The notes beneath the pieces were generated by a model. The model saw only the letters and a list, made by a program, of their open reading frames with translations. It was not told where the DNA came from and ran no database searches. DNA of 64,000 nucleotides from contig JAATGJ010000132.1 of assembly GCA_015654695.1 (NCBI GenBank), positions 1 to 64,000 on the forward strand, read 5' to 3'. The position numbers and the translations under genes are program-made. Source of the stretch: Chitinophagales bacterium. GTDB taxonomy: Bacteria > Bacteroidota > Bacteroidia > Chitinophagales > Chitinophagaceae. Shown here one piece after another: positions 7,456 to 21,318 of the stretch (positions within the stretch are counted from its first letter, which is position 1; each line of letters begins with the position of its first letter).

Positions 7456-7908
7456 TCATTTGTAGATTTTTTTCCAGTCTTCCGCAGTCATTTCAAATTT
7501 TATTTCCCCCTTTCCATGCATACCAGCTTCCCTCCAACCGGCCTTTCGATAAAATTGTTCTGCCCTTGTATTGGGAGAAGTGCCTAACCAAATTGTTTTG
7601 TGAGTTTGACTAAAATACCAATTGATCATATCATCATGGAGTTTTTTTCCTATCCCTCCTTTATCATAACCGGGTTGGATAAATAAAGCCCATACATTGT
7701 TGTCTGCCACTGATACAATGGCAAATCCCACTACCCTGTTATCTGCTATGCACACCCATCCTTTGCCCCGGTTGCTGATATAGTCTTCTACACCTTTATC
7801 GGGTACGAGGTCAGGATTAGAAAGAGTGTTTTCTTTTACTGAATTTCTTACAAATTGTATCTGTGGAATATCTGTTGGCCACGCCTCTCTGAAAATCATA
7901 TATATCAT
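7456..7908 (-). CDS. GNAT family N-acetyltransferase
   Basis: This small acetyltransferase of about 150 residues carries the acetyl-CoA-binding motif A as GYDKGGIGKKL, then the late strand and helix with NTRAEQFYRKAGW, which is the usual GNAT beta-bulge and helix signature. I chose the ATG at 7908: the open frame extends to a TTG at 7938, but that would lie upstream of the apparent -7 promoter element at 7936-7943. A GGAAA stretch precedes the 7908 ATG. An ATG at 7899 is a second candidate. The acceptor substrate is unknown. Confidence 0.85.
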   Translation of the reverse strand: MIYMIFREAWPTDIPQIQFVRNSVKENTLSNPDLVPDKGVEDYISNRGKGWVCIADNRVVGFAIVSVADNNVWALFIQPGYDKGGIGKKLHDDMINWYFSQTHKTIWLGTSPNTRAEQFYRKAGWREAGMHGKGEIKFEMTAEDWKKIYK

Positions 7909-7935
7909 TAAATTTTCCGTTATTAATGTCTGGCG

Positions 7936-7943
7936 CAAATGTA
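7936..7943 (-). promoter_or_regulatory. -7 promoter element (TACATTTG) for the GNAT gene
   Basis: The minus strand reads TACATTTG, an exact TAnnTTTG match, 28 bases before the preferred ATG at 7908. It supports that start over the upstream TTG. Confidence 0.55.
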
Positions 7944-7980
7944 TCTAAAAATAAAACCGCCCAGGAAATCCGGGGCGGTT
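7943..7980 (-). terminator. Rho-independent terminator of the lipoprotein gene
   Basis: AACCGCCC at 7955-7962 pairs with GGGCGGTT at 7973-7980. On the minus strand the stem is followed by TTATTTTT, so it ends transcription from the lipoprotein gene that stops at 8003 and separates it from the GNAT promoter. Confidence 0.8.
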
Positions 7981-8002
7981 GAAAATATTTTCTGTCGGAA
8001 AA

Positions 8003-8920
8003 TTAATATGGGTGTATTACAGTTATCGTATCGCCCCTGAGCCCTGTCCACATAACTTTGTAATAATAACTACCTGTACCGGGGCAGGAAGTTTCGTTCC
8101 CGCTTGCATTCAAGCCAAACGTGACAGAACCATTAACCAGGGGAGTTGTATGCGCTACCCTGCCACTGGTTAAACGAAAACTACAATCCTGGCGAACGAT
8201 CAATGGTGATGTAATAGCAGTAGAAAACGCCCCGCCAAAACGGTTAGTACCCCATTCTGCTATATTCGATGCACTGCCGTCACTATGTGTACCTGTTGTG
8301 GTGATAACCGCTCCGCCGCTATATGAAAACACTCTTTGTTTTGATACCTGCCAGCTTCTCTGCGCTCCATTGTCAAAAGTAACGGAGAGACCATTGCTGG
8401 TTATGCTATGAGTAATACTTCCTAATGCTACCAGGTTGAGCAGGAGGCCACCGCTTACATTCGTATAGGTTTGTGTACCATTAATAGTAATGCTTTTATT
8501 GTCGCTTACCCTTGTGATCTTTAAGTTCTGGAAAGTAACGGTGATAGCTGCGCCTGCGTTTTTCCATTGTGTTCCCTGCGGCGTGGATAACACTACAATA
8601 CCGGTACGGCTACGGTTGCCAAGGCAATTCGTGCCATTATATGTAATGGTAATAGTCATCGGGTTGCTGGTAGTATTCACGGCAATAGTCGCATCGCAAA
8701 TAACGCCCTGAACTCCCATAAAGCGGCCGGTGAAAGTCGGGTATGATTCTATTGCGATATCCGCATCATTCGAAACCGCATCTACTTCTGATGCAAAACG
8801 GGACTGATCATCCGAATGGGTGGCGATCTCGTTGTTGTCTTTGGGAGTGGAATCTTTTTTACAGGCAGCAAAGCCGATCAATAAAGAAAATGCCAAAAGA
8901 TAAAGAAATTGCTTTTTCAT
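8003..8920 (-). CDS. Hypothetical lipoprotein
   Basis: The 305-residue product has a lipoprotein signal peptide (MKKQFLYLLAF up to the lipobox, with Cys20 in FAACKKD). The rest is Thr/Ser/Asn-rich and predicted to be beta-rich. It shows repeated strands such as NPMTITITYNGTNC and SITINGTQTYTN, and two or three widely spaced Cys residues. I recognise no named domain. The motif NGTNCLGNRSRTG resembles a conserved segment of Bacteroidota lipoproteins of unknown function. It should be anchored to the outer membrane, facing the periplasm or the surface. It has its own promoter element upstream and a terminator downstream, so it is a single-gene unit. Confidence 0.75.
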   Translation of the reverse strand: MKKQFLYLLAFSLLIGFAACKKDSTPKDNNEIATHSDDQSRFASEVDAVSNDADIAIESYPTFTGRFMGVQGVICDATIAVNTTSNPMTITITYNGTNCLGNRSRTGIVVLSTPQGTQWKNAGAAITVTFQNLKITRVSDNKSITINGTQTYTNVSGGLLLNLVALGSITHSITSNGLSVTFDNGAQRSWQVSKQRVFSYSGGAVITTTGTHSDGSASNIAEWGTNRFGGAFSTAITSPLIVRQDCSFRLTSGRVAHTTPLVNGSVTFGLNASGNETSCPGTGSYYYKVMWTGLRGDTITVIHPY

Positions 8921-14605: not shown

Positions 14606-15298
14606 ATGGAAGAATCAGAAAAATTAAAACGGGTGGTTGAAGCGCGGATGAAATTAAAGTCCCGTTTTGAAGAAAAGATAAAACAAACGCCATCCGTTGC
14701 AGACAATAAACCCATGGGCTCGGGAAAACCCAATCGTCATGGAATGCCTGTCATTCCCGTTGGGCAAACGGAAACAAAGAAATGGCCGGTGCTGGACTTG
14801 GGTGTTCAACCCGATATTTCGTTAAAGGAATGGAAATTAGTCGTTGATGGTGCGGTAGAACATCCCTTTGAATTGAACTGGGAAGAGTTTATGGCATTGC
14901 CGCAGACGGAAGATGTTTCGGATTTTCATTGCGTTACTACCTGGTCAAAATTAAATGTTAGCTGGAAAGGTATCCGCTTGCTGGATCTCGCTGCTTTGGC
15001 TATGCCTAAAGAAGCCGCCACGCACATTTTATGTTATGGATATGATGATTATACCACTAATGTTTCATTAGAAGAAGCATTGAAGCCTGACGTATTACTG
15101 GTACATACTGCGCAAGGGCAGCCACTACCCAAAGAACATGGAGGACCTGTACGCATGATCACCCCGCAACTGTATGCATGGAAAGGTTCGAAATGGATAA
15201 ACAGGATAGAATTTTTAACCCGTAACCGATTGGGGTTCTGGGAAGAAAGAGGTTATTCCAATACAGCCTATCCCTGGAGAAATGACAGGTATAGCTGA
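14606..15298 (+). CDS. Sulfite oxidase-like molybdopterin-dependent oxidoreductase
   Basis: The 230-residue product lacks a signal peptide and a haem domain. It matches the SUOX/YedY molybdenum-cofactor fold: WKLVVDGAVEHP at the start of the domain, and DFHCVTTWS, where Cys109 is the expected molybdenum ligand. Further motifs are GIRLLDLAA, HGGPVRMITPQLYAWKGSKW for the pterin-contacting C-terminal part, and GFWEERGY. The N-terminal 40 residues form a charged helix. In vivo substrates of this short subgroup are not known; sulfite or sulfoxides are candidates. It faces a TauE/SafE exporter gene only 10 bases away, and that family includes sulfite exporters. Confidence 0.88.
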   Translation: MEESEKLKRVVEARMKLKSRFEEKIKQTPSVADNKPMGSGKPNRHGMPVIPVGQTETKKWPVLDLGVQPDISLKEWKLVVDGAVEHPFELNWEEFMALPQTEDVSDFHCVTTWSKLNVSWKGIRLLDLAALAMPKEAATHILCYGYDDYTTNVSLEEALKPDVLLVHTAQGQPLPKEHGGPVRMITPQLYAWKGSKWINRIEFLTRNRLGFWEERGYSNTAYPWRNDRYS

Positions 15299-15308
15299 TC
15301 CTTGTTTA

Positions 15309-16061
15309 TTACTTGAAGAAAATAAATACAGCACCCACAAGTGTCAATGCTATTACTACTTTCCTGTAACTGTCATCTTTTATTTTTGAAACAATTTTAA
15401 TACCTGCCCAAAAACCCACCAGCAATGCAGGCAATAATACCAGGTCAGTTTGTAAAACATGCAGGTCAATATTTTTCCAGTAAAAGACCTGGAAAGGAAG
15501 TTTGAAAAGATTGATGACCAAAAACACCCATGCAGCCGTGCCGATAAAATCGTTCTTTGGCATACGCATGGCTAAAAAATAAATATTGGAAAAGGCGCCT
15601 GCGAGGTTGCCCATCATAGTGGTAAAACCCGCGGTCAAGCCTGTAGTAGCTACAAATAATTTATTATCCGGCATCTTGTCGCTTTTACGAACTTCCAGCA
15701 TGATCATAATTATAACAGTCAGTATAATGATCAGCGCCATGATCTTCCTGAACAAAGTTTCATTAATATCTTTCCCCGCAAATACACCAATAAGAATGCC
15801 CGCCATCATCCAGGGTATCAGTTTCCAGAAATGAGGCCATTGTGCGTGGCGGTTATAATAAATAACAGCAAATATATCGGCGACACAAAGCAAAGGCAAT
15901 ACGATCCCCGTGGATGCCTTGCCGCCAAAAACAATGGCCATGATCGTTACGTTCATCATGTCAATACCTTTTAACCCGGCTTTGGAAAGCCCAATGATAA
16001 AAGCGGCCAGTAATATCAACACCCAGTTAGTGACTGAATAAGCGTAGAAAATATCCATCAT
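15309..16061 (-). CDS. TauE/SafE family sulfite/sulfonate exporter-like permease
   Basis: The 250-residue membrane protein has about eight predicted helices. It contains the TauE/SafE signatures AFIIGLSKAGLKGIDM near the N-terminus and TAGFTTMMGNLAGAF in the second half, which repeat the same G-T-M-G/N-A-G motif. The family exports sulfite, sulfoacetate or other organosulfur anions. The gene converges on the sulfite-oxidase-like gene, leaving 10 bases between the stops. The pairing suggests a shared role in sulfur detoxification, but they are not one operon. Confidence 0.85.
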   Translation of the reverse strand: MMDIFYAYSVTNWVLILLAAFIIGLSKAGLKGIDMMNVTIMAIVFGGKASTGIVLPLLCVADIFAVIYYNRHAQWPHFWKLIPWMMAGILIGVFAGKDINETLFRKIMALIIILTVIIMIMLEVRKSDKMPDNKLFVATTGLTAGFTTMMGNLAGAFSNIYFLAMRMPKNDFIGTAAWVFLVINLFKLPFQVFYWKNIDLHVLQTDLVLLPALLVGFWAGIKIVSKIKDDSYRKVVIALTLVGAVFIFFK

Positions 16062-16108: not shown

Positions 16109-17095
16109 CTAATTATTTATTGCCGCTTCTTGCGCTACGGTATATTCCACTTGTTTTTCGATGGTTTGTCTTTTACCATCCTGGTCAACGTATTCGATCT
16201 TTACAGGGACATAATGTTTTCCGGGCTTAATGGATGCCTTGAATTTATATACGACAAATCCATTATCATTTAGGGGCACGCTTCTGCCTCCAATAATTAT
16301 TTGAGGCAAAGCAGCTTTACTAAAAGCACCCATGCCAGCAGTTATTTCGATCTTTTCACCTTTTCGCAAATAGCTACTGCTTTGTCCAATAATGGCACTA
16401 TAGAATGTAAAGCTATCCCCTCCACCTCCAATTTTCTTGTAGCAAAATTGAATAAACCTGTTCTCTGTATTTTTTATATTATTCTGGAACTGGCTCAGCA
16501 TAGCCAGAGATGCAACTGTAGAACTGTTCATAAAAAACATCTTTCTTAGATCTTGTTGCGTTTCTGGCAGTATATCAAAAGATTGTGTTGTTAATTGTAT
16601 TGTATTTTTGAAAACATAGCTCATCTGTGAATCAATTGACAATATATCTTTTTTATATTGCTTTAATCTCTCATGGAGTTCATTTGCTTTCCTTTTAGTT
16701 CCAAATAGGCGATTAACAGCATCCCTATCATCCTCTTTGAATGACTCCTTATCTTCCCCGGTTATAAGTCCTGCTTCTCTTTTGAGATCAGCTTTCAATC
16801 TATCAATATAGGTATATATGTTTGTAGAAAATTGCTGAATGAGCATGGCTTTGGGTTTCCAGATTTTTGCCCGATTAGTTGTACTTTGTTCCATCATTTT
16901 TTCGTCTATGCCTGCAATCACTGTCAGAGTACCCTCATTAATTGTTTGATTTGAGTTGTTTAAACTTTCATCTAATGCTTTAAAAATTGCAAGCCTGTTA
17001 TCTTTCTTGTTGGAGCATGCGGAAAAAAAGATAGCAAAAAGGATTGAACTGATGAATAAGGCTTTCTTAGTGGTAATACAATGTACATCTGGCAT
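16109..17095 (-). CDS. GldM-like lipoprotein, first two domains only
   Basis: The product has 328 residues, with a lipoprotein signal whose lipobox is FFSAC (Cys27). Residues 40-220 resemble the helical first periplasmic domain of the gliding/T9SS motor protein GldM (PorM): ESLNNSNQTI at the start, an IYTYIDRLKADL helix, and STVASLAMLSQFQNNIKNTEN. That last segment matches the GldM pattern of a helix with QNDIKNAE. Residues 235-320 resemble the second, Ig-like GldM domain (YLRKGEKIEITAG, PGKHYVPVKIEY). Canonical GldM has about 510 residues, an N-terminal transmembrane helix that binds GldL, and four domains. Here the anchor is replaced by a lipid anchor and two domains are missing. No gldK, gldL or gldN is nearby. 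The function is unknown. Confidence 0.7.
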   Translation of the reverse strand: MPDVHCITTKKALFISSILFAIFFSACSNKKDNRLAIFKALDESLNNSNQTINEGTLTVIAGIDEKMMEQSTTNRAKIWKPKAMLIQQFSTNIYTYIDRLKADLKREAGLITGEDKESFKEDDRDAVNRLFGTKRKANELHERLKQYKKDILSIDSQMSYVFKNTIQLTTQSFDILPETQQDLRKMFFMNSSTVASLAMLSQFQNNIKNTENRFIQFCYKKIGGGGDSFTFYSAIIGQSSSYLRKGEKIEITAGMGAFSKAALPQIIIGGRSVPLNDNGFVVYKFKASIKPGKHYVPVKIEYVDQDGKRQTIEKQVEYTVAQEAAINN

Positions 17096-17270: not shown

Positions 17271-18443
17271 CTACTGCACACCCTGCTGCGAAACAATATT
17301 TTTTTGCTTTATTACCCCGGCGGCTCTTGTATATCCTCCTTCTGCACCATCTACAAAATGAACATGCCTGTCATTGAGGTTGCGGACATAGCAGGACATT
17401 ACCGATTCTTTACTCACGTACAGGCCATACACTATTTCTCCATCACGTTCTATTTTAGTTAATGCAGTTTCCAGCAGTTCCCTTTGCTGTGTAGTACCGG
17501 AGATCACTGTATTAATTTTTCCATCAATAACCAGCGTATCCGACATATCCACAAGGTTATGCAGATAGACTTTTCCTTTTTTTGTTTTAAAATAAAAATA
17601 ACCAAGTGACATTTTTATCCAGTTTGTCAGCAGGTAGAAAAGTCTGAACCCTCCCATACGGGCCCGCATTTCCAACCCTATCTTCGCCAGCGTTGCTTTT
17701 AGTTTCAGCTTTGTTATACTTATTGGCGTCCGGGTTTGCGGTGCGCCGTATATGGCATCCACACTGTCTATTACTTTTTTAAACGCCAGTGAATGTTTCA
17801 CTCCTTCCCGCGGTATCACTAATAAACTAACTACCTCGAAAAAATTTTCCGGTGGCTTTATCCTGTCCCACCGGCATTGCATTCCACTCAGGTCAAGCTC
17901 ATCCACCGAAACGGGCAGAGTCGCCAGCATATAATCAGGACCTTTGATCTTTTTTTCAGCATAGGTTAGCCCATCACCTAATAACACAGGAATGGCAAAC
18001 ATTTCAGAGGTTTTTAATTTGCTGATGTTAAGAGCATGTTCCTGTTCATATATCTCCGCCACCGGTACATGACCCACCCTAAGGTCAAGGTTGAAATTAA
18101 TTCGCGTATTTTCCTTGTGTTGCAGCAGCGCATGGATGATAGTATCCAGCAGCGAAGGCGGTATAATGAAAGTAGCGCCATCACCACCAAAAAAGAAAGG
18201 AACAGTAAGTTTGGATTTATAGGCAATATTAAGCACCGCAACAATACTGCCTGTAGCAACAAGGTTGATTGTTTCATGAAGACCTCCCTGTATAGCCGCA
18301 GTAGAATTTCTTACATCCGTGATCAGCACATGCCAGTTAGCAGGTATTTTAAAAAAAAGGTGCTCCTCTGTCAAAAGATCGCTGAGAGGGATTTCATTTA
18401 CAGGCAACCGGGAATAGAACAGATCATTATTTATTGCCGGCAT
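17271..18443 (-). CDS. DUF3095 protein with cyclase-like motifs
   Basis: This 390-residue protein has no signal peptide. It matches the uncharacterised DUF3095 family. Near the N-terminus, HVLITDVRNSTAA (Asp43) is followed by a helix and then FFFGGDGATFIIP (Asp88). The order of a strand with D-x-x-x-S/T, a helix and a G-D-G hairpin resembles the metal-binding strands of class III nucleotidyl cyclases. The second half has no recognised motif except RARMGGFRLFYLL and a possible amphipathic segment. A cyclase or nucleotide-binding role is inferred from this pattern only. A true class III cyclase lies 3 kb away at 21541-22635. Confidence 0.7.
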   Translation of the reverse strand: MPAINNDLFYSRLPVNEIPLSDLLTEEHLFFKIPANWHVLITDVRNSTAAIQGGLHETINLVATGSIVAVLNIAYKSKLTVPFFFGGDGATFIIPPSLLDTIIHALLQHKENTRINFNLDLRVGHVPVAEIYEQEHALNISKLKTSEMFAIPVLLGDGLTYAEKKIKGPDYMLATLPVSVDELDLSGMQCRWDRIKPPENFFEVVSLLVIPREGVKHSLAFKKVIDSVDAIYGAPQTRTPISITKLKLKATLAKIGLEMRARMGGFRLFYLLTNWIKMSLGYFYFKTKKGKVYLHNLVDMSDTLVIDGKINTVISGTTQQRELLETALTKIERDGEIVYGLYVSKESVMSCYVRNLNDRHVHFVDGAEGGYTRAAGVIKQKNIVSQQGVQ

Positions 18444-20682: not shown

Positions 20683-21318
20683 TTATTGCTGGCTGGCAGA
20701 AACTGAAGTACTTGATTTTGTTTCAGATGATACTTTTGCTTCAGGTTTTGCTGATGCAGCAGTCTTCGTGACAGATTTTACATCCGATTTTATTTCTGTC
20801 TTTACTTCTTTTGATCTTACTATTGCCGCATCGGTTTTGTTTTTAACGGTTGTAGTTGTTTTGTCAGTTACAGCCTGGGCGGCATCCACTGGTTTTTTAC
20901 CATTGATATCAGCGCCTGCCTGTACTGATGCAACGGCCCCGTTATCAGTACTGGCGGCATCGTTAGAAGCAGTAGTATTACTTTGTGTACTAAGCGATGT
21001 ATTTGTATTTACATCAGCGCTGTTTTTAATAGTGTTACCGGTTTTGGCAACAGTTGCGGAAGTTTTTTCACTTGCTATTCCTGCTGCGGCTGTTGCTTTT
21101 GTTTTCAGATTGGTCACATTGCTAGCCGATGTTTTTAAAGTGCTTTTTGTTGCTTGTGTGGCAGCTCCTGTTGCTTTAGTTACCGCTGCTGTATTAGCTG
21201 TAACGTTGGTGGCGGCCTGCGTCGTTGATTTCAAATCAAGATTTACCTGTGCAAACATGCATAAAGAGGTGAAACTTGCGAGGGTAAGACTTAATACCTT
21301 TTTTGTTGTTGTTTTCAT
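20683..21318 (-). CDS. Low-complexity Ala/Thr/Lys-rich secreted protein
   Basis: A signal peptide (VLSLTLASFTSLCMFAQ) precedes about 185 residues made almost only of Ala, Thr, Ser, Lys, Val and Asn. The sequence has irregular short repeats such as TKATGAATQATKST and KTKATAAAG and almost no aromatic or Cys residues. It is probably disordered or a long amphipathic helix in the periplasm. The pattern resembles LEA-like or filament-like low-complexity proteins, but no family can be named. It is a single-gene unit with a strong terminator. Confidence 0.7.
   Translation of the reverse strand: MKTTTKKVLSLTLASFTSLCMFAQVNLDLKSTTQAATNVTANTAAVTKATGAATQATKSTLKTSASNVTNLKTKATAAAGIASEKTSATVAKTGNTIKNSADVNTNTSLSTQSNTTASNDAASTDNGAVASVQAGADINGKKPVDAAQAVTDKTTTTVKNKTDAAIVRSKEVKTEIKSDVKSVTKTAASAKPEAKVSSETKSSTSVSASQQ

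Follow-up and report, generated by a model that had tools for sequence, protein, structure and literature searches.

The T9SS motor is among the few known rotary motors driven by a proton gradient, and to our knowledge the regulation of its output is poorly understood. Its shaft is formed by GldM, or PorM, with domains 1 to 4 (D1-D4). The contact between GldL and GldM has been reported to depend on transmembrane (TM) helices, the GldM TM helix peptide used in that work comprising Leu15-Leu38 (PMC8986121). The D2 domains of GldM exchange their first two strands between partners, and helix 1 mediates the packing of D1 dimers; in two-hybrid assays D2-D3, the construct tested, oligomerises, whereas isolated D1 and isolated D4 do not, and PorM D4 suffices for the interaction with PorN, D2-D3 plus D4 being needed for PorK (PMC5790014). 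Annotated GldM proteins form a single narrow length peak (PMC9389320), and GldJ and GldO are reported as paralogues of GldK and GldN (PMC10202324). We found no description of lipoprotein or D1-D2-only GldM paralogues in the open-access literature searched, and the D1-D2 lipoproteins presented here are a conserved, GldM-derived family that had previously gone unremarked there.

The window, that is, the whole stretch of 64,000 nucleotides that was analysed, carries at 16109..17095 (-) (stop codon included) a 328-aa ORF with an ATG start. Its product matched the Pfam families GldM_1st (residues 36-216, 86.1 bits vs. a cut-off of 25) and GldM_2nd (residues 229-322, 44.4 bits vs. 24.4) above their cut-offs, the sole further Pfam row, Nup49_C, being sub-threshold. 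The NCBIfam model of full GldM/PorM, TIGR03517, gave 116.4 bits, which is below its cut-off of 180, and the match spanned profile positions 35-324 of 524, indicating that just the first two GldM domains are covered. All eight matches with E < 0.001 in a sequence search of the PDB were GldM/PorM, the best being 7saz (7.5e-10). The neighbours of the ORF are TauE/SafE and DUF3095 genes, and no gldL adjoins it. The DUF3095 protein (17271-18443 (-), 327 bits) is encoded directly upstream; the TauE/SafE family exporter gene (15309-16061 (-), Pfam) lies end-to-end with a gene for a molybdopterin oxidoreductase-domain protein (14606-15298 (+), Pfam), and as a guess these two might form a sulfite oxidation/export pair. 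A 211-aa low-complexity ORF rich in Ala/Thr/Lys, with a signal-like N-terminus, is located at 20683-21318 (-).

We modelled the window protein as a monomer with AlphaFold2, using 29 aligned sequences, i.e. 12 lipoproteins (the window protein included) and 17 true GldMs. The model (mean pLDDT 85.3, pTM 0.62) consists of a helical bundle, D1 (residues 30-222, 16430..17008 (-)), with the QNNIKN motif in its last helix and an SN pair at residues 48-49, and of an Ig-like beta domain, D2 (residues 233-320, 16136..16399 (-)). Residues 233-256 (16328-16399 (-)) align with the two strands that are swapped between GldM subunits (PMC5790014), an exchange to which monomer models are blind. In Foldseek the top matches were PorM 7cmg (8.8e-11), GldM 6ey4 and GldM 7sb2, and VIA-align superimposed D1 on GldM 7sau_A with a Z of 21.5 and an rmsd of 2.8 over 187 residues. 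Ig domains came next, but with a Z of 8-10, which is close to what unrelated folds commonly give; D2 is therefore identified by its sequence. A control model of D1-D2 from a true GldM (L159) had the same structures at the head of its list (7sau with a Z of 22.2); as 17 of the 29 input rows were true GldMs, these models are not independent of GldM.

The N-terminus of the window protein has the features of a type II signal peptide (residues 1-26, 17018..17095 (-)), as read from the sequence: a basic n-region, a hydrophobic stretch and an FFSA-C lipobox, from which lipidation of Cys27 (codon 17015..17017 (-)) is predicted. We compared it with 50 of the 52 short ORFs in our first set of loci (alignment A1), leaving aside a 154-aa fragment that lacks the N-terminus and a lipobox-bearing ORF of 243 aa with D1 only. 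In this alignment just two positions, Cys27 and Gly292, are the same in every row. The Cys column corresponds to GldM residue 24 in all but one of the 51 full sequences and to residue 25 in that one, i.e. it lies inside the TM helix. A lipobox pattern occurs within 60 residues in 47 of the 52 short ORFs. At the other end the window ORF stops 10 residues past Tyr318, and all 50 copies end 3-15 residues beyond the Tyr318 column, which closes D2. With E values up to 0.01 Pfam recognised GldM_1st in 35 and GldM_2nd in 29 of the 50 copies and the D3/D4 families in none, three other families being matched by one member each. The sequence-only reading had described a lipoprotein version of GldM restricted to D1 and D2, with a lipobox Cys27 where GldM has its TM helix and with an end before D3 and D4, and every part of this description was borne out: GldM/PorM came first in the profile, sequence and fold searches, the model did match the GldM fold, the matches were not confined to unrelated coiled-coil lipoproteins, and the Cys and the end point recur throughout the aligned copies. 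The GldM D1-D2 observation at 16109-17095 is thus confirmed as real, far beyond chance.

The same genome encodes a true GldM of 511 aa with the usual N-terminal helix. It is located on contig C69, not on the window contig, with GldL (189 bits) immediately upstream, and scores 343.1 bits against TIGR03517 (cut-off 180). Apart from these two proteins the genome has no GldM_1st match, a weaker E limit adding one chance-level protein match. Over residues 28-324 the window protein is 39% identical to this GldM (219.5 bits), which is not its closest one, as the GldM of another genome (G222) reaches 41% and 238.9 bits; this admittedly weak look gave no sign of co-evolution with its own GldM. Several genomes of genera g89 and g97 contain two full-length GldM-like open frames, which suggests a second T9SS motor locus in them.

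Further lipoprotein paralogues of GldM do exist and form a conserved family, often in tandem. We searched 394 Chitinophagaceae genomes with the window protein and then with a family profile and took a closer look at genomes with at least two matches (56 and 15 genomes, respectively). Complete D1-D2 lipoproteins are present in at least 31 of the 394 genomes, from 17 genera, a lower bound because the best candidates per genome alone were scored. The copies, including another complete one found later (L200), are single or stand in rows of two to five, with five in L096 and four each in L073 and L082. Partial lipoprotein relatives occur in four more genomes, with D1 only (G128), D2 only (G051), a D2 cut short (G364) or truncation by a contig end (G201). 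The lipoprotein-like ORF of G128 (L206, 214 aa) and one in G001 (L066:9502-10233, 243 aa) contain D1 only, and in the 134-aa ORF of G051 (L208:1399-1803) the family profile matches the GldM D2 part only. Within the window's genus (seven genomes including its own) copies are found in the window's genome, in G003, where the copy is 44% identical, and in G001, where a D1-D2 copy and one with D1 alone stand side by side; in three of the six other members the only GldM-like match has a long frame, and a fourth, whose genome is 64% complete, gave just one partial match. A short copy in G134 was dropped, as the sequence there is the N-terminal part of a full GldM cut off by the end of its contig.

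Outside Chitinophagaceae a phylum-level search of 395 genomes (E ≤ 1e-10, with the six best candidates scored in each genome) gave only open frames of 506-570 aa among the matches listed. In a search of the order (248 genomes) we examined 37 genomes from other families with at least two matches, and the matches listed included short copies with a TM segment (L150, L153), a short ORF (L152) and a broken lipoprotein-like copy (L151), so that the restriction to one family is not strict. Of six further regions searched with the profile two were true-GldM loci (L154, L155). L150 (G811 contig C119, 36000-55000), from another family of the order, holds five short GldM-like matches of ~300 aa each in a row; the copies that were read have an N-terminal TM segment and no lipobox, and four were flagged by the family profile. 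L153:6877-7488 (G848) encodes a 203-aa protein in which an N-terminal TM segment precedes D1, the only GldM domain present. The copy in L151 (G796, ~7837-8860), from a neighbouring family, is broken by an internal stop.

We calculated three trees, all of them quick ones. In a maximum-likelihood tree that combined 51 short with 51 full sequences a single branch separated the two groups (SH-aLRT 100), and in a second tree of 22 short and 47 full sequences the lipoproteins again formed one branch (SH-aLRT 99). The second tree contained 34 extra GldMs (34 of 42 such sequences, also used in the third tree), 33 of them from other families and one, L112, from Chitinophagaceae; 31 of the 34 grouped together beyond the Chitinophagaceae GldMs, an arrangement compatible with a duplication within the Chitinophagaceae line, provided that the root falls inside that group. 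When four TM-anchored copies from another family, one TM-like copy and L200, a very long and very divergent lipoprotein row, were added in a third tree, the lipoproteins were no longer one branch, lipoprotein and TM-anchored rows lying on one side with a support of 84. A single origin of the lipoproteins is thus likely, not proven.

Sequence constraint is distributed differently in the lipoproteins and in GldM. The window protein and the GldM of its genome share 33% of residues in D1 (62/190) and 54% in D2 (47/87), and strands one and two of D2 reach 62% (15/24). The ratio of mean pairwise identity in D2 to that in D1 is 1.57 for the 50 lipoproteins vs. 1.06 for 51 Chitinophagaceae GldMs and 1.03 for 53 divergent GldMs (one of them, L112, from Chitinophagaceae), and in random subsets of 15 rows it ranged from 1.42 to 1.74 for the lipoproteins and from 0.95 to 1.11 for GldMs. 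Mean identity of the lipoproteins is 0.197 in D1 and 0.308 in D2, compared with 0.288 and 0.296 in the divergent GldMs, and this greater divergence of the lipoproteins, or a harder alignment of D1, may inflate the contrast. From the skew towards D2 we infer that D2 is probably the working part of the lipoprotein. The lack of a known route to GldL or to the PorK/PorN ring likewise leaves D1 as a tethered stalk and makes D2 the likely functional part. Conservation of helix 1 among the lipoproteins is low (0.31 vs. 0.65).

Our best guess for the function is a non-motor accessory that works through D2, either on GldM or on itself. We tentatively favour the possibility that the paralogue was born of a gldM duplication, most likely in the Chitinophagaceae line, and became a lipid-tethered accessory or brake of T9SS. 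The paralogue would have lost the TM helix and D3-D4 and acquired a lipoprotein signal; once mature, the protein would be held by the lipidated Cys27, with D1 as a short helical stalk and D2 as its working tip. Having neither the helix for GldL nor the D4 for the GldK/GldN ring, it would stand outside the GldL-driven motor. Its D2 might exchange strands as GldM does, the most plausible partner being GldM's own D2, and the protein would then be an accessory of the motor or a brake on it; if D2 paired with itself instead, the protein would have a role in the envelope independent of the motor. The partner of D2, the membrane of residence and the direction of the effect are guesses, and the decoy, adaptor or regulator roles suggested in the sequence-only reading are likewise conjectural. 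Several results count against the accessory or brake: helix 1, used by GldM for packing of D1 dimers, is poorly conserved, the window protein is not closest to its own GldM, the third tree breaks up the lipoproteins, neighbouring genes give no link to T9SS, the D2/D1 contrast may be inflated, and oligomerisation has been reported for a D2-D3 construct. A more specific version, in which the lipoproteins insert their D2 strands into GldM D2 to give mixed undriven shafts and serve as tandemly diversified brakes or clutches of the proton-driven T9SS/gliding motor, is unlikely.

That the D1-D2 scaffold was co-opted for an independent periplasmic lipoprotein, whose D2 binds itself or another ligand and which makes no contact with T9SS, is a serious possibility. 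In 34 loci no cluster except the GldM-like one was found in more than six, i.e. the lipoprotein genes are without conserved neighbours, and no neighbouring gene ties the lipoprotein to T9SS. The fast divergence, the tandem copies and the patchy distribution, down to the window's own genus, fit such an independent role as well. Nevertheless, D2 has remained near the GldM sequence, the swapped strands included, and complete copies were seen only alongside GldM, a long GldM frame being present in all 31 genomes with a complete lipoprotein copy. This co-occurrence with T9SS has no power, however, since the window protein as query matches 365 of the 394 family genomes anyway, mostly via GldM itself.

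The Ig-like domain could also be exposed on the cell surface and contact surfaces or other cells, which we regard as rather improbable. Surface-export signals of Bacteroidota are described as acidic (PMC5080379), and two acidic residues at positions +2 to +6 after the Cys are present in 15 of the 50 copies vs. 1 of 36 other lipoproteins of the same loci. None of the 50 copies fits the published surface-export (LES) patterns, but this comparison is uninformative as none of the 36 other lipoproteins and none of six SusD-like proteins of these loci fits them either. The tether is short, which speaks against exposure, with 17-22 residues from the Cys to the S48 column in the 50 copies.

It is very improbable that the window ORF is a decaying gldM fragment or an assembly artefact. 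Some family members are indeed fragmentary (L083:8167-8631; G364, G051, G287), as is the broken copy of the neighbouring family, but the window ORF is complete, the Cys is retained in 50 of 50 copies and their end point is shared. Moreover, dN/dS (NG86) was 0.27, 0.27, 0.22, 0.24 and 0.17 in five close pairs, with dS > 1 in three of them and a sixth pair saturated; as calculated from these sequences, the D1-D2 lipoproteins are maintained by purifying selection. For the family taken together, the complete ORF, the conserved Cys, the common end and the dN/dS values below 0.3 refute decay or artefact. Least probable is that the protein still serves as a motor or shaft subunit, with some other mode of coupling to GldL: the D1-D2 fold is like that of GldM, but the TM helix, on which the GldL-GldM contact depends (PMC8986121), D3 and D4 are all absent, which makes a motor part very unlikely and supports the earlier claim that the paralogue cannot work as a motor subunit.

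Returning to the accessory that we tentatively prefer, the family keeps the base of the shaft and has most of its identity in the dimerising domain of GldM, and it drops the drive helix and the end that meets the outer-membrane ring. The lipoproteins would thus allow a simple test of motor tuning by undriven partners; if they are unrelated to T9SS, they would plainly exemplify the reuse of a motor component as a tethered protein of the envelope.

Among known systems the closest is GldM/PorM itself, which the window protein resembles in D1 and D2, in sequence (39% identity to its own GldM) and in predicted fold, but from which it differs by a lipobox in place of the TM helix, the absence of D3/D4, a TIGR03517 score below the cut-off and a gldL gene that is not adjoining. 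The TM-anchored tandem array (G811, L150) likewise encodes GldM D1-D2-like proteins of ~300 aa in tandem, whereas these have a TM segment at the N-terminus and lack a lipobox. For F. johnsoniae, too, more than one gene of the gldM/porM type is on record, extra PorM orthologues being mentioned in a passage that gives neither their architecture nor a lipoprotein form (PMC5790014). Finally, GldJ and GldO provide a precedent for T9SS core genes with paralogues in gliding species, but those paralogues are reported in an outer-membrane-associated complex (PMC10202324), whereas here it is the motor shaft that is shortened and re-anchored.
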